Source: Pseudomonadota bacterium
Lineage (GTDB): Bacteria > Myxococcota_A > Bradymonadia > UBA4248
NCBI GenBank assembly: GCA_017441205.1
Contig: JAFRYG010000064.1
Location: forward strand, 1-36,929
DNA length: 36,929 nucleotides
Direction: 5' to 3'
Under the pieces are notes generated by a model. It was given only the letters and a program-made list of their open reading frames with translations. It was not told the DNA's origin and ran no database searches. How positions within the stretch are numbered: the first letter of the stretch is position 1; each line of letters opens with the position of its first letter. This document shows, piece after piece, positions 2,689 to 36,586 of this stretch. The position numbers and the translations under genes were made by a program.

Positions 2689-2709
2689 GACGTGTCACGA
2701 CACGTCTCT
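2689..2709. repeat. CGTCTCT palindrome
   Basis: The inverted repeat AGACGTGT-cacg-ACACGTCT is followed by CT. It is fused directly to the first hairpin of the tandem repeat at 2700-2873. It belongs with the palindromes at 1-66, 8287-8302 and 12792-12815. Confidence 0.7.
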
Positions 2710-2873
2710 ACTCGCTATGGGCTGCCGCCCATACGCTCGCTGGCCGCTGCTATTGCCGTTCGGCAATACGCAGCAGCTTCTGATGATAGACACGTCTCTG
2801 CTATGGGCTGCCGCCCATACGCTCGCTGGCCGCTGCTATTGCCGTTCGGCAATACGCATCGGCTTCTGATGAT
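2700..2873. repeat. Tandem ~88 bp duplication carrying two stem-loops per unit
   Basis: Two nearly identical units at 2700-2787 and 2790-2873 each begin ACACGTCTCT and end TCTGATGAT. Each holds a TATGGGC-tgcc-GCCCATAC hairpin (2716-2734, 2802-2820) and a TATTGCC-gttc-GGCAATAC hairpin (2751-2769, 2837-2855). In the first unit the second hairpin is extended by an outer stem GCTGC/GCAGC (2746-2774), with the single C at 2769 unpaired. The array fills the gap between the molybdenum hydroxylase and the LysM gene and lies in the canonical + orientation downstream of a + gene. Confidence 0.8.
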
Positions 2874-6429: not shown

Positions 6430-8253
6430 ATGAATACAAAACAAAACCCGATACAATCGCCATCAGATGGAATGAATCAGACAAACGAAATCGGCCAATA
6501 CGAAAATGAAGGAGCTGCCGTTTCACTGAATCATGAAACATCAAAACTGAATACGCCGCCGGTTCTGGCTGACAAATACGAATATTTGCAGCACATCGGC
6601 AGCGGTACCCAGGGCGATATCTATAAAGCGCGCATTCTGAAAACCGGCAATCTTGTTGCCATCAAACAGCTTCGAATCGATCAGGTCGATAACTGGAAAG
6701 CGTACGATCTCTTCGAACGTGAAGCAGACGTTCTGTCAAAACTGAATATCCCCGGCGTTTCAAAATTCTACGAAGCATTTAAATATTTTGATGCCGATCC
6801 ACCCTGCGCATTTATTGTACAGGAATTCATCGATGGGGTATCCCTCGAAACACATATTCGCAGCGGACTGCGCTGGACATTGCCCAGAACATTCAACATT
6901 GCAGTCCAGATCCTGGATATCCTCGAAAAACTGCACAAAAACGATCCACCGATCATTCATCGCGATTTAAAGCCAGGCAATATCATGATAACCCAGGAAG
7001 ATGGGAAAGACCGCGTATATCTCATCGACTTTGGAGCTGTGGCCAATCCGATTGTTCAGGGCGGCGGCTCGACAATTGCGGGTACGTTTGGATACATGCC
7101 GCCGGAACAGCTCATGGGAAAACCGGGGCCCGAAAGCGACCTGTACGCATTGGCAGCCACTATCGTGTATATGCTGAGCGGTGTCTCCCCGGCAGATATT
7201 CAAACACTGGAATTTCGACTCGTCATTGAGCCGCATCTGCAATCATTCCCTGCAGTCGTCATGCATTTGCTCGGGCGCATGCTCAACCCATCGGCACAAA
7301 AGAGGCTCACGGATTATGATGAAATCCGACGGTATTTTAATAACTTTATCCAATCCGATTTTACAGAAGGCAAACAAACTGACGATAAATTCTATGCATC
7401 CCCGGATTATGTCGCACAGTTCAAATCGGTAAAAACGCTTTGGGACAGCGGTAACCTGAAACTTTGGTCTGCTCTGCCGACTGCGTCAGACCGTATCGTT
7501 CCCAATGAAATCGTATCAATGGAAGCTGCCGATCTGATGTCGCATCGTTCCATTATGCGCGGAGAATACAAACCTAAAGTAAAAACATCTGCTTTAATCA
7601 AATTGATCACCCTGATTTTTGCGGGATGGATGGGGTATTTTGCATTCGTATATCTATTCAATGAACGCACATTAACAGAGGCATTAAAAGCAGGATTTTC
7701 CGGTATACTTGCCTGGATAATCTTTGCGATTTTTATATGTATTATTATCGGCGGATTTATATGGCTGGCGTTTGGCGCAGGGAAATGGAAGTCGAGCAAA
7801 GCTCTCCCCGCTCATAAAATAACACCATACGGATATATCTTATGCAAAAGAAAATTGCTCGCAAACGGACAAAAGACAATTGCAACCATCGTGAGCGTTC
7901 AATATATCCCAAACACTGATCCGCCCGTTGAATTATATGCAATTATTGGTCAGGAGAGCAAAGAATATATCCATAATATTCCCTCGTTTAGAATCAGTTA
8001 TAAATTCAATCCCCCAGACGATTCGCTCAAAGATGACCTCGTGCATCAAATCACAATACATCGTGATCCCAGCAACCATCTGCATCCCGGAGATCCGCTG
8101 CCGATACTCTACTGGATCGCACCGCTGAACAATAACAAAGTTATCAGTATGCCCTACCCTTTTGCTCAATGTGATACAGAAAACTATAAGGATATCATAT
8201 GCTATACAAAGGATGGAGCTATAACCGACTACGAAGCTGCTCTTTTCTACTGA
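6430..8253 (+). CDS. Hanks-type Ser/Thr protein kinase with membrane hairpin
   Basis: This 607-residue protein is the second kinase of the pair. A low-complexity polar N-terminus (1-48) is followed by an intact kinase domain: GSGTQGDIY, Lys79, Glu98, HRDLKPGN (Asp179, Asn184), DFG Asp200 and GTFGYMPPEQ. Two hydrophobic helices follow (about 387-411 and 424-447). With a cytoplasmic kinase, this membrane hairpin returns the C-terminal ~155 residues to the cytoplasm. That tail ends in a GDPLPILYW...ISMPYPF segment similar in style to the DUF3592-like tail of the upstream kinase. It has no extracellular sensor domain, unlike PknB-type receptors, so any signal would come from a partner or the membrane. 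Its stop at 8253 is followed by a palindrome and a bulged stem-loop. Confidence 0.9.
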   Translation: MNTKQNPIQSPSDGMNQTNEIGQYENEGAAVSLNHETSKLNTPPVLADKYEYLQHIGSGTQGDIYKARILKTGNLVAIKQLRIDQVDNWKAYDLFEREADVLSKLNIPGVSKFYEAFKYFDADPPCAFIVQEFIDGVSLETHIRSGLRWTLPRTFNIAVQILDILEKLHKNDPPIIHRDLKPGNIMITQEDGKDRVYLIDFGAVANPIVQGGGSTIAGTFGYMPPEQLMGKPGPESDLYALAATIVYMLSGVSPADIQTLEFRLVIEPHLQSFPAVVMHLLGRMLNPSAQKRLTDYDEIRRYFNNFIQSDFTEGKQTDDKFYASPDYVAQFKSVKTLWDSGNLKLWSALPTASDRIVPNEIVSMEAADLMSHRSIMRGEYKPKVKTSALIKLITLIFAGWMGYFAFVYLFNERTLTEALKAGFSGILAWIIFAIFICIIIGGFIWLAFGAGKWKSSKALPAHKITPYGYILCKRKLLANGQKTIATIVSVQYIPNTDPPVELYAIIGQESKEYIHNIPSFRISYKFNPPDDSLKDDLVHQITIHRDPSNHLHPGDPLPILYWIAPLNNNKVISMPYPFAQCDTENYKDIICYTKDGAITDYEAALFY

Positions 8254-8286
8254 TTCGTACGGAACACGGGCTATCTCGCCGGCAGT

Positions 8287-8302
8287 ACGTGTCATGACAC
8301 GT
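8287..8302. repeat. CGTCTCT-family palindrome
   Basis: ACGTGTCATGACACGT is a perfect 16 bp palindrome followed by CTT. It matches the 2689-2709 copy in its ACGTGT/ACACGT arms and again lies just upstream of a bulged stem-loop. Confidence 0.65.
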
Positions 8303-8325
8303 CTTCCGGTTCGATACGCCCTTTG

Positions 8326-8359
8326 CGCTCGCCTATGTGCGCTGCACATACGGCGAGCG
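8326..8359 (+). repeat. Bulged stem-loop element
   Basis: The outer stem is CGCTCGCC/GGCGAGCG and the inner stem is TATGTGC/GCACATA, with loop GCT. The single C at 8351 is unpaired. It lies in the convergent gap between the second kinase (+) and the hydrolase lipoprotein (-), in the same orientation as the kinase. A near-identical copy is at 13413-13444. There is no T-run directly after the stem, so it does not look like a standard intrinsic terminator. Confidence 0.8.
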
Positions 8360-8412
8360 ATTGTTTTTGGGGAATGACAATCAAGCGGAATGCATCCTTA
8401 CGGCACAAGGAT

Positions 8413-9921
8413 TTAATTGGCCTTGATAAATGCCGCAATATCGTCGATGACCTCGGTTCTCACGTGCTTGGTTGGGGTATAATCCTCGAAGATCGTACTC
8501 ACTTTCGTATTCGTCGACTCCGTCATCAGATGATTGGTTTTGGGATACAAGTGCGAAACCATTTTGGGATTATCTTTCAGGATTTCCTTATAGGCTGTAA
8601 AATCTTTATCTGCATAAACCTGCATATCATTTTCGCCCTGAAGCAATAAGATCGGCATCCGCAGTTCAGTATAGTAAGACTTGTCCTGATGTTTTCTCAG
8701 GGATTTATAATAATAAGCCGGCACACCAAAAATCGGCGTTTCATCTGCGACTTTATCAAGATCTTTGGTGCTGGCAATCGCACCATCGATCATATCCTGC
8801 AATTGTTTAATCTGCGCTTCGGCTTCCTTGAGTTCCTCAGGAGATGCTGTTGCTTTGGTTTCTTCGAGGGTTCGTACATTCTGTTCGATTTGCACATCAA
8901 GTATATCCCTGGGTGTACCGGCCACCGATATAACACCGCTCAATGTCGGGTTTTCTTTGGCAATTACAGGTACAATCATGCCTCCAAGTGAGTGACCGAG
9001 TACAAATATCTTTTCGGTGTTGATATCTGTTCTGGTGCGAAGCAATGCAATTGCAGCATTTGCATCATCGATGGTTTCTTCGCGGATACCAAACCGATTG
9101 ATATCTGCGGGTTTCCAGTTTGGAGATGCCGTTCGCTTGGTATATCTCAGTGTGGCAATGCCGCGTTCGCCCAGACCATAAGCAATATCTTTAAAGGGGG
9201 CTGCGCCCAGAATCGTTTCGTTCTTATCATGAGGTCCGGAACCGTGCACCAAAATCACGACGGGCGGTTTCTCGACGCCTTTGGGCAAAGTAAGGAAAGC
9301 ATCGAGTGTCGGACCGCCGGCAGCCTGAACCTGAACTTCAGTTTCGCTGTACTTATCTGTCGAAACCGGACCGTCATTGGGTTTTATACTATCTATTTTG
9401 GCGACTTCACCATCTGCACCGGGCGTTGGAAATGCGTTTTCTTCTCCAAACTTAAAGCTAAGCCCATTAATTTTATGATCCTTGTCAAAACTGATGCGCA
9501 TCACGAGCGTCTGACGTTCATACTTATCCACGACATCATAAACCATGAATCCTTGCAATTCAGCTTGTCCTGTGCGCTGATACGAGACGAACTCGCCCAA
9601 GATGCCGTATAGCTGCGCCATTGTAGCTTTGAGCGCTTCAAGTGACATCAATTCCTGCATCTGCGCATCAAACTGCTGATACACACGTTCAATTTCACCA
9701 TTGCGCAAACAGGCCGCAATCTCTTCGGGCGTTGTGCAATTGCTTGCTTGTTTTTCCGGCGCATTCGCTTCCGGCGCATTCGCTTCCGGCGCATTCGTTT
9801 CCGGCGTATTCACATTCTCCTCCAACTGCTTAGCAGGCTGTTTATGACTGCATCCCGGCAGCATGAACAGAAGCGCTGCCAGAGTAAAACCGATCACTAC
9901 ACTATTTCGTCGAATAACCAT
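8413..9921 (-). CDS. Lipoprotein alpha/beta hydrolase (DUF3887-like N-terminus), copy 1
   Basis: This 502-residue lipoprotein has a hydrophobic signal ending LLFMLPGC (lipobox, Cys24). A Pro/Glu/Asn linker holds repeats of the unit NAPEA. A small domain (about 60-190) resembles DUF3887, and an alpha/beta-hydrolase domain follows. The catalytic residues visible are Ser311 in GHSLGG, Asp432 in GENDMQV and His464 in TNHLMTE, with an oxyanion-type VHGSGP upstream. It should hydrolyse an ester or amide at the outer membrane or in the periplasm; the substrate is unknown. The start has AAGGAG five bases upstream. A close paralogue is at 13499-14983, and their downstream flanks also match. Confidence 0.88.
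   Translation of the reverse strand: MVIRRNSVVIGFTLAALLFMLPGCSHKQPAKQLEENVNTPETNAPEANAPEANAPEKQASNCTTPEEIAACLRNGEIERVYQQFDAQMQELMSLEALKATMAQLYGILGEFVSYQRTGQAELQGFMVYDVVDKYERQTLVMRISFDKDHKINGLSFKFGEENAFPTPGADGEVAKIDSIKPNDGPVSTDKYSETEVQVQAAGGPTLDAFLTLPKGVEKPPVVILVHGSGPHDKNETILGAAPFKDIAYGLGERGIATLRYTKRTASPNWKPADINRFGIREETIDDANAAIALLRTRTDINTEKIFVLGHSLGGMIVPVIAKENPTLSGVISVAGTPRDILDVQIEQNVRTLEETKATASPEELKEAEAQIKQLQDMIDGAIASTKDLDKVADETPIFGVPAYYYKSLRKHQDKSYYTELRMPILLLQGENDMQVYADKDFTAYKEILKDNPKMVSHLYPKTNHLMTESTNTKVSTIFEDYTPTKHVRTEVIDDIAAFIKAN
9754..9813 (-). repeat. 15 bp in-frame tandem repeat (four units)
   Basis: Four consecutive 15 bp units (plus-strand form TTCCGGCGCATTCGC with variants) encode the five-residue unit NAPEA in the linker just after the lipobox. 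The paralogous gene has only two units, at 14843-14872. The repeat keeps the reading frame, so copy number changes only linker length. Confidence 0.85.
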
Positions 9922-10012
9922 ATCACTCCTTCTGTCATAATCACTGACGTCAAAGCCATAATTCTGACTGATTCCACAAATTTCACTTTTGCCGTATGAC
10001 CATTATCCGGTT

Positions 10013-12676
10013 CTACTTCAAGGATTTATTCACAATCGCACTGTTAAATGCTTCATTGTACATATCCGTGTATTTATAGCAGTTTCCGCCTGTATTGACA
10101 TTGTTCGGACAATCGCTCTTTTCGTTTGTTGGTTTTGTGGATTTTTCGGAATAATAATCAAAGACATTATCCATCCGAATCAGGAAAGAAGCATTACTCG
10201 TCGTATTAACCCATCCGCTTTTGATAAACTCAGCTATTGTATACTTTGTCAGCTTGTTGCCGCTTCGGTTTCCCGTTGCCTCCCCGACTTCAATATGGGT
10301 CAAAGCTCCGCTGGAATTGCGTTTAATGCCAATAATCATGGCAACATGCCCATTTTTATAGAGATCATTTTGTTTATCCGTGTATGCGCCTAACCACAAC
10401 AGATCCCCGGCTTTGACCTCTTTTAATTTCTTTTGGAGATTAGATTCAGATATATTGTTGAGTTTAATAAAATCCGAGTCATTCAAACGGTTGAGTTTTT
10501 TGTAAGCCGATGTCAATCCGTTATTCATGTTTGACCAGGCATATTTGTTGTCTTTATTATTGACAATATTTTCACACCTATAATTTCTCAATACTTTCCC
10601 GTTGGGTTTACAGGCACCGGACTTTGCAAACATCAGTGTTTTCCAGTCACCCAGTCCCAGCTGGCCATTCCGGAATGCCCATGTCACGAAACCGGAACAC
10701 TCCAGACCATTATAAGGATATTCATCCGATGCATTACATCCCTTCGCACTGGCGACACAGGAATAGGCAGCCCCCCAGGGCACGACGTTTTCCCTCAATA
10801 TATTGCTTTTTGCATGACTCGTTGCAGAATTATATACATTCGATGTCAGATTCAATCCCATTATCCCGATTTCCGAGAGTTTGGATTTTTTCGAATCATG
10901 AATATTGAATACATAATGACTGAGTGCCTTTATTGTATTATTCAGGGCACCGGAATAATAGGGGATATCGTATGGGAACTGCAGGATCAAAAAACGGGCA
11001 GCTGCAACAACGCTTGCGCGCGTTCCATAATATTTGCCATCGTCCCCCTGGAGCATGTGGGGACGAATGTAATTCACAAACATATCATTATCGATGACCT
11101 TTAACTCTTCCTCCGTAAATATCTGCTTACCGTAAGGATTGGCTGGACCATACTTTGTCTCAATCCCCCCAAGATTGGCCTTTAACTCATTATCCGATTC
11201 CTTGTTGCCCGGATAATTCTTGACATGATGTCCCGGAGCATAACCATTTTTATATACGAGACTGCTCAACTGGACAAAACCATCCATATCGAAATAAGGC
11301 TTGAGCGTAAGCGTAGCTTCTGCTTTGGCTTTGGCATCATTCTCGACGGTCACGGTCATTGTCGTCAAATGCCGGCTATGCCCCACGAACTGAACCGTTT
11401 CGGTTTTCTTTGCTTTATCCTTAACGATGCATTCACTCAGTTTTTTCGATACGGTTCCATCGTTCTTCCGGCACCGCAAACCAGACAGATCTTGATCAGC
11501 GGCCTTGCCGTTGACTTTCCAGACGAGATCCGATTCATTCGAATTGGTCGCCACCATCTTTTCAGATACCGAACTCAGCATAACATCCAGATTGGCGGGG
11601 TTGATCGATATCGCCATTGCTTTGCAGGTACCATCGACACATGTTTCCCCTGACTTGCAGCTCACCTTTGCACAGGGATCAATCGGTTTGCAGGCTCCAT
11701 TGCTGCACTGCTCATTCTCTTTACAAATGGAATCGCCGCACTTACACACACCATGATCGCAGGATTCGTCAGCAGCGCAAGCACTGCATGACTCATCTTC
11801 CTTCTTTTGACAAACCCCATGTTCATCACAATATTCCGTCGATTCATCACAGGCGGGATTACATCCGGATGCCGGCGGTTCTTTGGGGACGCATGTTCCG
11901 TCTTCACAGATATCATTCTCGCTGCATGCAGGTTCGCACTCGACCGGCTTATCTTCCTCACCGGGGGGATCTTCCAGATCATCTTCACAAGAACCTGCCT
12001 TACAGATCTGATGTTCTGTACACTTGCTTTCACCACACAGACATTCCCCCTCAACGCATGTCTCATCGGCATTGCAGGAACCGTTGCAGGGATCACCGGT
12101 TTCAGGTGTTTCGCAGTCGTCACCGGTACATGTTTCCTCTGCTTTTTCGCATGTTCCGGCATTGCAAGTTTCGTCGGCCTTGCAAATCATATCACCGCAT
12201 CTGCACTCACCCTCAACACAGGTCTCACCCGTTCGGCATTTGCCATCGCATTTGGCATCAGGCTTTTCGCAGTCATCGCCGACGCATGAAACGTCTGGTT
12301 TCTCGCATACCCCTGCTTTGCAGATCTCTCCTTCATCACATTTCTTTCCCCCGCATCTGCACTCACCGTCTACACATGTTTCATCCAGACTGCATTTTCC
12401 ATCGCAGGAATCGCCGGTCTCAGGCACGCGGCAATCGTCGCCGGTGCATTCATCATCCCTTTTAGTACACTTGCCGGATTTACAGATTTCGTCGCCGTCA
12501 CAGACCGAACCGCCGCACTGGCAAACCCCATCGACGCAGACAGAGCCATTTGTACAGTCTGAACCGCATGTCTGGTCACCGGATGAAGGCGTTTCGGCGG
12601 ACGTATCTTCATTACATCCTGCAATACAAAACAAACTGAATGCCATCAGCAATGAAACAGAGAGATGCTTTTTCAT
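10013..12676 (-). CDS. Giant Cys-rich lipoprotein with NlpC/P60-like C-terminal domain
   Basis: The start chosen is the ATG at 12676, preceded by AGAGG. A longer reading from 12703 would place nine extra residues before a normal lipoprotein signal (MKKHL ... IAGC). The 887-residue product has about 300 residues of repeated cysteine motifs (C.GD.C, ETCVEGECRCG, ICKAG.CE), presumably a disulfide-bonded stalk. An Ig-like segment with few cysteines follows. The C-terminal half contains ECSGFVTWAF (Cys660) and GHVAMIIG (His777), the spacing and wording expected of a papain-like NlpC/P60 or CHAP peptidoglycan hydrolase or amidase. It would sit on the cell surface or in the periplasm. A TTGAAT-N16-TAGAAT promoter lies upstream. 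Enzymatic assignment is by motif only. Confidence 0.8.
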   Translation of the reverse strand: MKKHLSVSLLMAFSLFCIAGCNEDTSAETPSSGDQTCGSDCTNGSVCVDGVCQCGGSVCDGDEICKSGKCTKRDDECTGDDCRVPETGDSCDGKCSLDETCVDGECRCGGKKCDEGEICKAGVCEKPDVSCVGDDCEKPDAKCDGKCRTGETCVEGECRCGDMICKADETCNAGTCEKAEETCTGDDCETPETGDPCNGSCNADETCVEGECLCGESKCTEHQICKAGSCEDDLEDPPGEEDKPVECEPACSENDICEDGTCVPKEPPASGCNPACDESTEYCDEHGVCQKKEDESCSACAADESCDHGVCKCGDSICKENEQCSNGACKPIDPCAKVSCKSGETCVDGTCKAMAISINPANLDVMLSSVSEKMVATNSNESDLVWKVNGKAADQDLSGLRCRKNDGTVSKKLSECIVKDKAKKTETVQFVGHSRHLTTMTVTVENDAKAKAEATLTLKPYFDMDGFVQLSSLVYKNGYAPGHHVKNYPGNKESDNELKANLGGIETKYGPANPYGKQIFTEEELKVIDNDMFVNYIRPHMLQGDDGKYYGTRASVVAAARFLILQFPYDIPYYSGALNNTIKALSHYVFNIHDSKKSKLSEIGIMGLNLTSNVYNSATSHAKSNILRENVVPWGAAYSCVASAKGCNASDEYPYNGLECSGFVTWAFRNGQLGLGDWKTLMFAKSGACKPNGKVLRNYRCENIVNNKDNKYAWSNMNNGLTSAYKKLNRLNDSDFIKLNNISESNLQKKLKEVKAGDLLWLGAYTDKQNDLYKNGHVAMIIGIKRNSSGALTHIEVGEATGNRSGNKLTKYTIAEFIKSGWVNTTSNASFLIRMDNVFDYYSEKSTKPTNEKSDCPNNVNTGGNCYKYTDMYNEAFNSAIVNKSLK

Positions 12677-12744
12677 ATCGGCCTCTTTTAAAGTGAAAAC
12701 CAACTATCAGAGTGAACAAAACAGCTTACATTCACCTATTCGGC

Positions 12745-12772
12745 ATTCTATCTCATAATTATTTTAATTCAA
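12745..12772 (-). promoter_or_regulatory. Candidate sigma70 promoter for the Cys-rich NlpC/P60 lipoprotein
   Basis: On the minus strand a -35 box TTGAAT (12767-12772) is separated by 16 bases from a -10 box TAGAAT (12745-12750), about 70 bp before the ATG at 12676. The same -35 sequence occurs in the promoter of the 33834-35939 lipoprotein. Confidence 0.55.
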
Positions 12773-12791
12773 GTAAATGCCGGTTTAGAAG

Positions 12792-12892
12792 GAGACGTCT
12801 CTGGGACACGTCTCTGTTCGCTATGGGCGGCCAAATAACCGCTATGTGATCGCCTGCAAGCCACCAACGCGTGCGTATGCGCAAAGCGCACA
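12792..12892. repeat. Degraded composite repeat (CGTCTCT palindrome plus hairpins)
   Basis: GAGACGTCTC and GGACACGTCTCT precede TTCGCTATGGGCGG, which matches the start of the 2700 unit but has lost its GCCCATAC partner. Further on, G-TATGCGC-aaa-GCGCACA (12875-12892) is a hairpin in the minus orientation with a weak outer stem. The block reads as a decayed or recombined member of the dispersed family. Confidence 0.5.
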
Positions 12893-12900
12893 AGCGAGCA

Positions 12901-13395
12901 TGTATCTTTTTGAGAAGCTCAAGATCATACAGACATCAACTTCAAGACGTACCTGAACGCCTTTAACGTCATTCACATCGACGTGAACGGATGCTATTCA
13001 AACTCGAACAACTACGAGGATATTGTGCTGTCGTTCAGGCGATGACTGATAGACAATATGGTAATTACTGGACCAAAACCGGTTCCTGTGATTCGATAAA
13101 ATATATATATCGATACATTTAAAAGCATCAAGGATGATGTCAAAGCCATGATTGCAGGAGGACGCATTTAGGCTTACGACAACAATACAAAACAGTGTTA
13201 TATACCGAACAATGAGATCCATTCGGAGTGGATCTATGCTATCGAAGATGATCCCGATTATGATAAAGCCATAGAAGCAGATGTCAATAAAACATGTAAC
13301 GACAATGAAAATATACTTGAACAAACAATCCGGCAATCATTCAAATTCTAAAGGAATCCGGTGCCAAAGACGAATCAAATGCTGATAATTAATAC
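12901..13395 (+). pseudogene. Decayed AAA-ATPase/PD-(D/E)XK nuclease family gene (DUF1703-type)
   Basis: Translated fragments on the plus strand match the AAA-ATPase-like family whose members end in a PD-(D/E)XK nuclease domain. LFEKLKII in one frame is followed after a frameshift by DINFKTYLNAFNVIHIDV (from 12932), the usual N-terminal region. Further fragments then resemble the family's middle: FKSIKDDVKAMIAGG and AYDNNTKQCYIPNNEIHSEW. In-frame stops lie at 13043, about 13100 and about 13169, and another frameshift lies near 13345. Most of the ~550-residue protein is missing. No intact copy is in the window. Family assignment is by recalled motif wording, so it is moderately sure; the disruption itself is plain. 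Confidence 0.6.
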
Positions 13396-13412
13396 TTGTA
13401 TTTAATATAAAT

Positions 13413-13444
13413 GCTCGCCTATGTGCGCTGCACATACGGCGAGC
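13413..13444 (+). repeat. Bulged stem-loop element (copy of 8326-8359)
   Basis: The outer stem is GCTCGCC/GGCGAGC, the inner stem TATGTGC/GCACATA, the loop GCT, and the unpaired C is at 13437. It is part of the larger duplication that includes the downstream hydrolase gene. It follows the pseudogene in the same orientation. Confidence 0.8.
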
Positions 13445-13498
13445 GATTGTTTTGGGGGAATGACAATCAAGCGGAATACATCCTTACGGCACAAGAAT

Positions 13499-14983
13499 TT
13501 AATTGGCCTTGATAAATGCCGCAATATCGTCGATGACCTCGGTTCTCACATGCTTGATTGGGGCATAATCCAGGCTGAGCGTACTCACTTTTGTATTCGT
13601 CGACTCCGTCATCAGATGATTGGTCTGAGGATACAAGTGTGAGACCATTTTGGGATTATCTTTTAAGATTTCCTTATAGGCTGCAAAATCTTTGTCCGCA
13701 TAAACCTGCATATCATTTTCGCCCTGCAGCAATAAAATCGGCATACGCAATTCGGTATAATAAGACTTGTCCTGATACTTTCTCATGGATTTATAATAAT
13801 AAGCAGGAACACCAAATATCAGCTTTTCATCCGGAACTTGTTCAAGCTCTTTGGATAAGGCAACCGTGCTGTCAATCGTCTCCTGAAGCAGCTTGATTTG
13901 TTCTTCGGCTTCCTTGAGTTCCTCGGGCGATGCGGTCACTTTGATTTCTTCGAGTACTCGCACATTTTGTTCGATTTGCACTTCAAGGATATCCCTCGGT
14001 GTACCAGCCATCGCTATAACACCGCTCAATGTCGGGTTTTCTTTGGCAATGACAGGTACGATTGAGCCCCCAAGAGAATGACCAAGTACAAATATCTTTT
14101 CAGGATTGATATCTGTTCTGGCGCGAAGCAATGCAATGGCTGCATTTGCGTCATCGAGAGTTTCTTCCTTGACTCCGAATCGAATAAAATCTGCGGGTTT
14201 CCAGTTTGGAGATCCCGTTCGCTTGGTATACCGCAGCGATGCAATGCCGCGCTCGGCCAGACCATGCGCAATATCCTTAAATGGTGCAGCCCCCATGTTC
14301 GTTTCATTCTTATCGCTGGGGCCAGAACCATGAACAAAAATCACGACGGGAGGTTTGTCGACGCCTTTGGGCAAAGTAAGGAAGGCATCTAGTGCCGGAC
14401 CGCCGGCAGCCTGAACCTGAACTTCAGTTTCGCTGTACTTATCTGTCGAAACCGGACCTTCCTCCGTTTTCTTTAAACTGTCTGCATTGGCAGCCTCTCC
14501 ATTCGCACCGGGCGTTGGAAGTGCATTTTCTTCGCCCAGCATTATCTGAAGCCCATTGATTTTCTTTTCCTTGTCAAAACTAATGCGCGTTACGACCACC
14601 TGATGTTCATATTTATCCACAACATCATATATCATCATCCCCTGCACTTCACCCTGACCTGTGCGCTGGTACGAAACGAACTCACCTATTACAGCACGCA
14701 GCTGCACCATTGAAGATTTGAGTGTTTCGATTGTCATATTTTTCTGCATCCTCGCATCAAACTGCTGATACACACATTCAACTTCACCACTGCGCAAACA
14801 GGCCGCAATTTCTTCGGGCGTTGTGCAATTGCTTACTTGTTTTTCCGGCGCATTCGCTTCCGGCGTATTCACATTCTCCTCCACCTGCTTAACTGGTTGT
14901 TTATGACTGCATCCATATTGCATGAACAAAAGCGCCATCATAGCGAGAACAATCACCACTGAAATCTTTTGTCGGCTTAACAT
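13499..14983 (-). CDS. Lipoprotein alpha/beta hydrolase (DUF3887-like N-terminus), copy 2
   Basis: This 494-residue paralogue of the 8413-9921 protein has the same architecture: lipobox (MQYGC), short NTPEANAPEK linker with two repeat units, DUF3887-like domain and alpha/beta hydrolase. Ser303 lies in GHSLGG, with GENDMQV and TNHLMTE downstream. The ATG at 14983 has AGGAG five bases upstream. A GTG two codons earlier overlaps that site and is less likely. Long stretches are identical to copy 1, including the last ~50 residues and ~85 bp of downstream DNA. The N-terminal domain and the part before the Asp/His residues differ most. Both copies keep the catalytic triad, so both may be functional. 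Confidence 0.88.
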   Translation of the reverse strand: MLSRQKISVVIVLAMMALLFMQYGCSHKQPVKQVEENVNTPEANAPEKQVSNCTTPEEIAACLRSGEVECVYQQFDARMQKNMTIETLKSSMVQLRAVIGEFVSYQRTGQGEVQGMMIYDVVDKYEHQVVVTRISFDKEKKINGLQIMLGEENALPTPGANGEAANADSLKKTEEGPVSTDKYSETEVQVQAAGGPALDAFLTLPKGVDKPPVVIFVHGSGPSDKNETNMGAAPFKDIAHGLAERGIASLRYTKRTGSPNWKPADFIRFGVKEETLDDANAAIALLRARTDINPEKIFVLGHSLGGSIVPVIAKENPTLSGVIAMAGTPRDILEVQIEQNVRVLEEIKVTASPEELKEAEEQIKLLQETIDSTVALSKELEQVPDEKLIFGVPAYYYKSMRKYQDKSYYTELRMPILLLQGENDMQVYADKDFAAYKEILKDNPKMVSHLYPQTNHLMTESTNTKVSTLSLDYAPIKHVRTEVIDDIAAFIKAN

Positions 14984-15055
14984 ACGCACTCCTGAGCAAA
15001 TTATTTGTGGGAACTACGCTTACCTCTGTGGTTCAGCATAAAGAATCTGAATTGG

Positions 15056-15215: not shown

Positions 15216-15340
15216 GCCGCCCGCGTATGCGCGCAAACCGCAGGTTGAGCACATAGCGAGCGGCAAGGCGGCTGTATGGGCGAACGCAGATCGCCCATAG
15301 GCCGCCAACGCGTGCCGTATGCGCAAAGCGCACAGGCGGG
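15216..15340 (-). repeat. Cluster of three bulged stem-loops
   Basis: Three hairpins follow one another in minus orientation. At 15216-15264 the outer stem GCCGCCCGC/GCGAGCGGC (one mismatch) surrounds TATGCGC/GCACATA (one mismatch). At 15267-15306 GGCGGCT/GGCCGCC surrounds TATGGGCGA/TCGCCCATA. At 15311-15340 a weaker outer stem surrounds TATGCGC/GCGCACA. Each has one unpaired G next to TAT, the complement of the unpaired C in plus-oriented copies. They lie in a divergent promoter region, unlike most copies, which lie downstream of genes. Confidence 0.7.
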
Positions 15341-15501
15341 CAAACACAAAATAATCTCCATGACACGCGCAGATATGTTATGCTGCGAGCGGTGTATTGT
15401 ATCGTTGCCTTTATGTCAAAAGGCGATGCCCAGACTGCAGCCGTTGTCATGGTTGAGTTAAAAGCCCGCCGATGACAGCGTTGAACCAACAGGAGAATAA
15501 A

Positions 15502-21764: not shown

Positions 21765-21798
21765 GCACCGCTATTGGCCCTGGGCCAATACGCGGTGC
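21765..21798 (+). repeat. Bulged stem-loop element
   Basis: The outer stem is GCACCGC/GCGGTGC and the inner stem TATTGGCC/GGCCAATA, with loop CTG. The unpaired C is at 21791. All other positions of both stems pair. It lies in the convergent gap after the phosphoesterase lipoprotein. Confidence 0.85.
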
Positions 21799-21800
21799 CA

Positions 21801-21842
21801 TGCGGCTATTGCCTGAGGCAATACGCCGCATTTCTTTTTTTT
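21801..21842 (+). terminator. Bulged stem-loop with T-run, likely intrinsic terminator
   Basis: The outer stem TGCGGC/GCCGCA and inner stem TATTGCC/GGCAATA have loop TGA and an unpaired C at 21824. The stem is followed at once by TTTCTTTTTTTT (21831-21842). It ends the plus-strand phosphoesterase lipoprotein gene and shows that at least one member of the hairpin family sits in a terminator. Confidence 0.75.
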
Positions 21843-24664: not shown

Positions 24665-24736
24665 GCTGCTGCGTATTTGCTGCAGGCAAATAGCAGCAGC
24701 CAGTTGTCGTATGTGCCGCAGGCACATAGACAATTG
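24665..24736 (-). repeat. Two adjacent bulged stem-loops
   Basis: At 24665-24700 the outer stem GCTGCTGC/GCAGCAGC surrounds TATTTGC/GCAAATA, with G24673 unpaired. At 24701-24736 CAGTTGTC/GACAATTG (one G:T) surrounds TATGTGCC/GGCACATA, with G24709 unpaired. Read on the minus strand both fit the TAT...ATAC-bulge form, and both lie directly downstream of the minus-strand gene 24752-27718. Confidence 0.8.
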
Positions 24737-33591: not shown

Positions 33592-33685
33592 ATTTTTTGA
33601 CCTTTATTCTTTCAAAGCGCAATCAGCGCGCATGGCGACGTTCTAATGAACTGTTCGACATTTTGCACGTATTTTCTGTTGGCCT

Positions 33686-33765
33686 CGGCTATTCGGCAGG
33701 GCAAAACCCTGCCGAATACGCCGCCGGCGCACCGCTATTGTCCATTCATGGCCAATACGCGGTGC
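33686..33765 (+). repeat. Two bulged stem-loops
   Basis: At 33686-33723 CGGC/GCCG surrounds the long inner stem TATTCGGCAGGG/CCCTGCCGAATA, with C33719 unpaired. At 33729-33765 GCACCGC/GCGGTGC surrounds TATTG.CCAT/ATGG.CAATA with one mismatch, with C33758 unpaired. They lie in the gap between two minus-strand genes but in the plus orientation, an exception to the usual downstream placement. Confidence 0.8.
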
Positions 33766-36010: not shown

Positions 36011-36586
36011 GGTTCATGGGTTATATTCGGTCATCAACGCATTCTTTTTCCGGTACTTTATTTGTGCAAAAAAAAATCGTACACCGAAGTGAAACAATCT
36101 CACTCCCGATGGCATCATGAAGAGTGAAGGAATGTTCCTTCCACTCTCATGAGGTGCCATATGTATCCATCCGGCTTTGTCTGACGAAGTTTCTCCCCCG
36201 ACATAATGTACGGACAACCCAGGGGAGGTTTTCTGCATCCAGGATTCCCGGACGCGGGGCCCCAATGCTGAAGAGCTGTACATGCCAGGCACATCGGGAT
36301 GCTTTTTTTACGACAGTTAATGCCGGAAAGGAGGCAGTGTGCCAAAGTCGAGCCAATTCAGGGTAGGGCGCAGGCTGGCGGGTGGGAATGGGACAGAGCG
36401 GATAACCCTTAAGGTTAGCCGCCACTCTTTATACCACATTAACCCACATTAACACACATTAACCCACACAAAAAAACCATACCCCACACTCATTTAAACA
36501 CTTCAGCTCACGCCAAAAAACAATCAGGATTGACCATGAATCAGATTTTTTCGTGAAAATGCCTGTTGCAGGTCAATTAAACACTG
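36011..36586. other. Non-coding stretch without a supported gene
   Basis: Overlapping short frames on both strands lack ribosome sites and family likeness. An imperfect hairpin GAGTGAAGGAA/TTCCTTCCACTC lies near 36123-36147. A short direct repeat of ACATTAACCCA (11 bp spacing) lies at about 36437-36468. I see nothing else that I can support. Confidence 0.5.

Follow-up and report, generated by a model that had tools for sequence, protein, structure and literature searches.

A family of bulged hairpins with a fixed core at gene ends in gut Myxococcota, one of them at the edge of a duplicated hydrolase gene

The window analysed here, the whole 36,929 nucleotides of contig JAFRYG010000064.1, carries a duplicated hydrolase gene whose homology starts at the outer base of a bulged hairpin. 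This hairpin belongs to a family that has a fixed core, is nearly excluded from genes, keeps one polarity in tandem, is followed by T-runs on one strand and is restricted to one bacterial family among the genomes searched. The explanation that we consider just probable is a segmental duplication of the hydrolase gene with conversion at its end, in which the hairpin is a terminator-like 3'-end element, specific to the lineage and fixed in its core, along which gene units tend to break.

The hydrolase gene pair

The features of the two hydrolase loci are as follows.

8413..9921, - strand: alpha/beta-hydrolase lipoprotein gene, copy 1, with DUF3887 and hydrolase domains
13499..14983, - strand: alpha/beta-hydrolase lipoprotein gene, copy 2, with DUF3887 and hydrolase domains
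8327..8463 (to about) with 13413-13549, no strand: low-divergence tract common to both loci, 3 differences in 137
8268..8321, + strand: element A of locus 1, GGG-CTATCTCG...TTCGATACG-CCC, with the palindrome ACGTGTCATGACACGT in its loop (by eye on sequence and fold)
8327..8358, + strand: bulged hairpin element B of locus 1, GCTCGC-CTATGTGCGCTGCACATACG-GCGAGC, at the duplication edge (alignment, fold and scan)
13413..13444, + strand: hairpin of locus 2, identical in sequence to element B, with no called + strand gene directly before it

As the preliminary description had proposed, the genes are close paralogues in the same orientation, both on the - strand, and their proteins are 79.5% identical over 492 columns (dN 0.12, dS 0.51). 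The loci align locally as 8327-9930 with 13413-14993, and homology extends from the first base of GCTCGCC...GGCGAGC in both copies until it fades at the start-codon region. Alignment of both loci therefore bears out the proposal that the duplication edge lies at or near the hairpin, placing it at the outer hairpin base (8327 and 13413), and the claimed identity of about 85 bp past the stop and through the hairpin corresponds to 86 nt with 3 differences.

In locus 1 the hairpins stand in tandem, element A being followed after 5 nt by element B. The duplication edge falls between the two, and element A was not carried over to locus 2. A palindrome had been reported beside the first hairpin and missing at the second; it is indeed absent at the second, and its sequence is ACGTGTCATGACACGT, not CGTCTCT. 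Real ACGTCTCT copies are found near 2689-2710 and 12787-12818. Element B lies 3' of a kinase gene (6430-8253, + strand), with TTGTTTTT coming shortly after. This placement of the hairpin behind a same-strand gene makes locus 1 the probable source of the duplication. The hairpins of the two loci have folding energies of -25.0 and -23.6 kcal/mol, whereas their shuffled versions average -11.3 and -9.6 and none of 200 shuffles does as well; pieces of the hairpin recur elsewhere in the same genome. Beside copy 2, the stretch 12838-13412 is stop-ridden and resembles decayed coding sequence; two pieces of it matched no Pfam family.

Divergence within the pair is uneven. The 3' tract has its 3 differences in 137 alignment positions against 233 in 1429 beyond it, which none of 2000 permutations equalled; the cut was the best one, picked afterwards, and the permutation allows for that picking. 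Synonymous divergence is also lower over the last 42 codons (dS 0.12) than overall. The alternation of identical and diverged stretches that had been described holds in part: identical synonymous-capable codons occur in clumped runs (p=0.003 for the sum of squared runs), the longest run taken alone is not significant (p=0.10), and the clear signal is the single 3' tract. The simplest reading of the aligned sequences is that this tract reflects late conversion, after duplication; an alternative is constraint on the 54-nt spacer.

The host genome (4.36 Mb in 221 contigs) encodes one further, distant homologue of the hydrolase (32% identical). Since the best homologue in the genus is only 48% identical, with others at 35-38%, the pair appears confined to its own lineage among the genomes compared. 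A search of the hydrolase protein against a set of genome contigs gave no match.

Fixed core and free stems

Each element is built from an outer stem, CTAT, an inner stem, a loop, the returning inner stem, ATA, one bulged C, a G and the returning outer stem. An unbiased scan of 366,891 bases of the host genome for hairpins with a 1-nt bulge returned 175 hits, 45 of them in the context C-TAT...ATA-[C]-G; the next context occurred 8 times, and two shuffles gave at most 2 per context. A count over every core tetramer with every bulge base, 1,024 cases in all, found the CTAT/C core 41 times and any other at most 6 times, and there was no instance of the CTAT core with another bulge base, no bulge or two bulged bases. 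The exact core occurs 148 times in 1.86 Mb of three species, in which nearly all single-base variants have a count of zero; those tolerated are CTTT (14), ATACA (6), ATATG (5), CTGT (3), CTCT (1) and ATACT (1). Watson-Crick-compensated core changes number at most 2 in the same sequence, so the core bases themselves matter and not pairing alone.

Within the stems 89.9% of 752 cells are paired, and covariation is 0.662 against 0.164 in shuffled alignments (0/500), measured on 47 rows picked for pairing after 10 of 57 element references had been left out by hand; the 59 hits behind this reference set include one nested call. Because these rows had been picked for pairing, the unbiased scan and the count of 1,024 cores serve as independent evidence. 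Within a genome hardly any two elements have the same full sequence (30/31, 86/89 and 44/45 distinct in three species, or 160 of 165), and the elements of a genome do not have in common a stem sequence of the kind expected of REPs. G-U pairs are rare, at 18 of 1,328 (1.4%) in elements versus 153 of 1,680 (9.1%) in ordinary T-run hairpins of the same species, and under stricter controls at 4 of 504 (0.8%) in T-run elements versus 34 of 632 (5.4%).

Orthologous elements, for which the top pairs of 582 passing a loose 9-mer filter were used, keep the core between species and change their stems. An inner C-G pair is flipped to G-C in L083/L105, two outer pairs are changed on both sides in L181/L082, and the inner stem is exchanged within a 96% identical segment in L057/L090. 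One-sided, pair-breaking changes occur too, in the window elements next to the xanthine-dehydrogenase-like gene as compared with species G001 and G005, and in L176. Near-identical elements with unrelated flanks exist, for example three in species G004, which indicates that some copying of elements occurs.

Beyond the hydrolase loci, the window contains these members of the family.

2742..2778, + strand: element after the xanthine-dehydrogenase-like gene; the stretch in common with two other species runs on for about 14 nt beyond it
2828..2864, + strand: second copy of the preceding element in an 86-nt direct repeat
15218..15262, - strand: element of a long-core subtype
15310..15341, - strand: CTGT-variant element
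21765..21798, + strand: first element of a tandem pair
21800..21831, + strand: second element of that pair, followed by a T-run
24666..24699, - strand: element of a tandem pair
24702..24735, - strand: element of the same tandem pair
33683..33726, + strand: first element of a tandem pair, with a weak outer stem (4/6 pairs)
33729..33765, + strand: element upstream of nadB, followed by a T-run

At 2714-2873, a unit of 86 nt that holds one element and a piece of another is present twice in tandem, the copies being 97% identical; compared with the unit in G001 and G005, where it is single, one stem pair is broken in each copy. The window (2689-2706 and 12787-12818) and many other loci also contain palindromes of another dispersed family, GACGT(GTC or TCC)...ACGTC carrying a TCT or TGT tail. 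That family gives 32-38 strand-hits per species sample and often adjoins bulged hairpins; its CGTC is reminiscent of the tag of the same sequence on known REPs.

The window also carries, at 36069-36421, a dispersed non-coding repeat of about 350 nt whose copies in the host genome are 74-81% identical (L041 7727-8085, L042 2388-2738, L044 3278-3628, L045 7658-7971 and L048 8113-8463), with others in L198, L204 and L217; there are six copies in a 367-kb sample of the host genome and three in G005. Invariant blocks alternate with variable ones, and the consensus fold has 67 pairs, 19 of them changed on both sides. The repeat had no match in Rfam and, judged by its modelled fold, looks like a large structured RNA.

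Distribution of the family

A pattern with fixed stems matched 7 of 95 relatives and its reversed control none. With a covariance model, elements were detected in all eight genomes of the bacterial family and in none of 20 relatives outside it; across the phylum the model identified 2 of 112 genomes, both of the same genus as the host, and none of the 110 others. Between 60 and 150 candidates were scored per genome, and the element counts of 124-182 per genome are lower bounds. An exact 22-base version, searched in 84,980 species represented by one genome each, was present in 35 stretches from five metagenome-assembled genomes only (Myxococcales UBA4248, uncultured Myxococcales, buffalo rectum, roe deer omasum and cattle colon). 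A single match in a viral contig was dropped as chance because its outer stem does not pair. No Rfam covariance model matched the element, and no description of the family was found in the literature searched, which left most subscription papers outside its reach; this intergenic hairpin family of gut Myxococcota is apparently undescribed.

Genomic position and orientation

In three species, 17 of 281 stringent elements lie inside called genes, though 83% of the sequence is coding, and the other 264, including 50 at contig edges, are extragenic and high in copy number as REPs are. Among the 281, convergent gaps hold 62, divergent gaps 29 and co-directional gaps 68 in sense and 55 in antisense orientation; these assignments are approximate, gene calls having come from a simple hexamer caller of our own. 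The median distance from stop codon to element is about 62 nt, and convergent gaps are enriched. Of 65 cases of neighbouring elements no more than 60 nt apart, 57 have both elements pointing the same way (57:8).

Among 166 elements, 63 have a T-run after the CTAT strand and 1 has one after the other strand. The T-run is more frequent where the element lies 3' of a same-strand gene (48/130) than otherwise (13/84, p=0.0006), and in two species 46 of the 125 strong T-run hairpins located 3' of a gene have the core. The 103 elements of 166 that have no T-run count against a terminator-type reading. In co-directional gaps, sense elements outnumber antisense ones by no more than 68:55 (p=0.28), and a role as RNA on the CTAT strand therefore cannot account for everything.

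Five of the 20 stretches in the host-genome sample were chosen for holding hits, the others by contig number, and known elements were part of the reason for taking one of the two larger G005 batches; the element densities are thus not random-sample estimates. Reciprocal best hits yielded no more than 14 orthologues in G004, a number too small for testing position; of four gene sides that bear an element in the host, three bear one on the same side there, which is only suggestive.

Edges of other duplications and transfers

Homology also ends at or near elements elsewhere. The xanthine-dehydrogenase-like gene at 94-2661 has about 97.4% DNA identity in two other species of the genus, G001 and G005, and no close copy in three others. 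Because the DNA of nadB is only about 75-78% identical to that of the species with the near-identical gene, recent transfer (or mis-binning) is indicated, and the stretch in common runs to about 14 nt beyond an element. A segment of about 4 kb (L057 11893-16013, L090 1197-5242), at 90-96% identity between two species over a background of 70-88%, is by its sequence apparently a second recent transfer, and in L057 it ends inside an element arm. In G004, the paralogues at L179 7274/9987 have a three-hairpin block that is 99% identical and starts at the outer base of its first hairpin; as in the window, a further element stands just before the edge at one of the two loci. Among 58 partly redundant paralogue alignments, 4 have, in both copies, an edge no more than 7 nt from an element. 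Arrays of diverged paralogues in tandem are themselves common in these genomes (G004 L184 7125-18645; G001 L124 2166-7314; G000 L047 262-8237).

The events behind the coincidence of edges and elements are few (one duplication, two transfers and 4 of the 58 partly redundant alignments). Elements take up just a few percent of the gaps between genes but concentrate where gene units end, and the coincidence is taken as suggestive. For the hydrolase pair it is partly expected, elements being common at gene ends; the hairpin is a possible recombination or transposition boundary of that duplication, as had been proposed.

Proposed mechanism and alternatives

In the explanation that we prefer, a segmental duplication would have copied one hydrolase gene together with the hairpin beyond its stop, the break falling between elements A and B of locus 1, and conversion would have acted at that end afterwards. 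Read on the CTAT strand, the element may be a standardised bulged terminator or 3'-end hairpin that ends or protects transcripts, with a dedicated putative factor reading the core; no binding factor for the core was found, which counts against this explanation. The palindrome may, more weakly, also be copied or read as DNA, as a cruciform or single strand. Such a DNA stage, which could proceed through template switching or a structure-specific enzyme, is hinted at by the near-absence of G-U pairs and by the tandem arrays. Were the palindrome copied or read as DNA, element arrays would be places where gene units break and are copied, and it is possible that the elements cause the breaks. A bolder version, which we regard as quite improbable, has some enzyme reading bulged hairpins with the invariant nine-base core as folded DNA throughout the genomes of this one family of gut Myxococcota; the hairpins would act both as transcript ends and as break points at which single genes, each with its 3' hairpin, are duplicated and handed on from species to species, a dispersed integron-like modularity without an integron integrase.

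The elements could instead be REP- or MITE-like mobile elements whose bulged core is recognised by a structure-specific transposase, of Y1/RAYT or other type, with terminator use secondary. This would account for the many dispersed intergenic copies, the identical elements with unrelated flanks, the three-hairpin blocks 99% identical between two loci and a 52 bp array common to locus 1 and contig C191. It is nevertheless unlikely, since full elements are almost all distinct, orthologous elements persist between species, and neither known tag is present (among 165 elements, GTAG occurs near the two ends in 1 and 1, CGTC in 4 and 6). A Y1 transposase as the mover was rejected: PF01797 is present in 7 of 11 genomes without tracking the elements, and was not found in the element-rich G002 and G003. 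According to PMC3733652, GTAG/CGTC REPs are likewise small, high-copy intergenic palindromes, mostly 3' of genes, some bulged and often grouped; as described there, they have an unpaired terminal GTAG/CGTC tag, conserved stems, frequent G-T pairs and many inverted dimers, whereas the present elements have no tag, free stems, a fixed mid-stem core, rare G-U pairs and direct tandem neighbours. The stem-loop families of 40 bacterial genomes (PMC2267715, main text) are also dispersed intergenic hairpins, possibly acting at the RNA level. They were found by clustering of similar sequences and HMM expansion, and the word 'bulge' is absent from that main text; unlike them, the hairpins here are defined by core and structure.

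Ordinary intrinsic terminators of one favoured design, with homology stopping simply because a gene unit ends at its terminator, make an improbable account of the family. The likeness is a G+C-rich hairpin followed by a T-run at gene ends, and the one-strand T-run, the distance from the stop codon and the enrichment in convergent gaps all fit. However, rho-independent termination needs neither an invariant core nor a bulge, and the fixed CTAT/ATACG core with its bulged C, the missing compensated variants, the depletion of G-U pairs, the tandem arrays and the majority of copies without a T-run set the elements apart.

Integron attC sites have a free stem, an extrahelical base, a polarity and a position at the 3' end of moved genes. 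The present elements resemble them in each of these traits, with a fixed extrahelical base and uniform polarity in arrays, and the moved units (hydrolase, xanthine-dehydrogenase-like gene and L057/L090) span from near the start codon to an element. That the elements are site-specific recombination sites delimiting gene cassettes, folded from one strand as attC is, nonetheless seems the most doubtful of these readings. The core sequence differs from that of attC, the elements are scattered genome-wide, they point in differing directions with respect to the moved gene, the events are few, and the junction is not one fixed base (outer base, inside an arm, about 14 nt past the hairpin). No IntI accompanies them, the integrase model TIGR02249 exceeding its cut-off in none of the eight genomes of the family (2 of the 15 searched).

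Significance

Families of dispersed hairpins in bacteria are usually identified by the sequence that their members have in common. In this one nine bases and one bulge are kept as all else changes, the signature of a structure that a specific partner reads. Core hairpins make up about a third of the strong terminator-like 3' hairpins in the two species, and finding the partner of the core would open the 3'-end biology of an uncultured lineage. With this family it can also be tested whether arrays of hairpins steer the duplication and transfer of genes.
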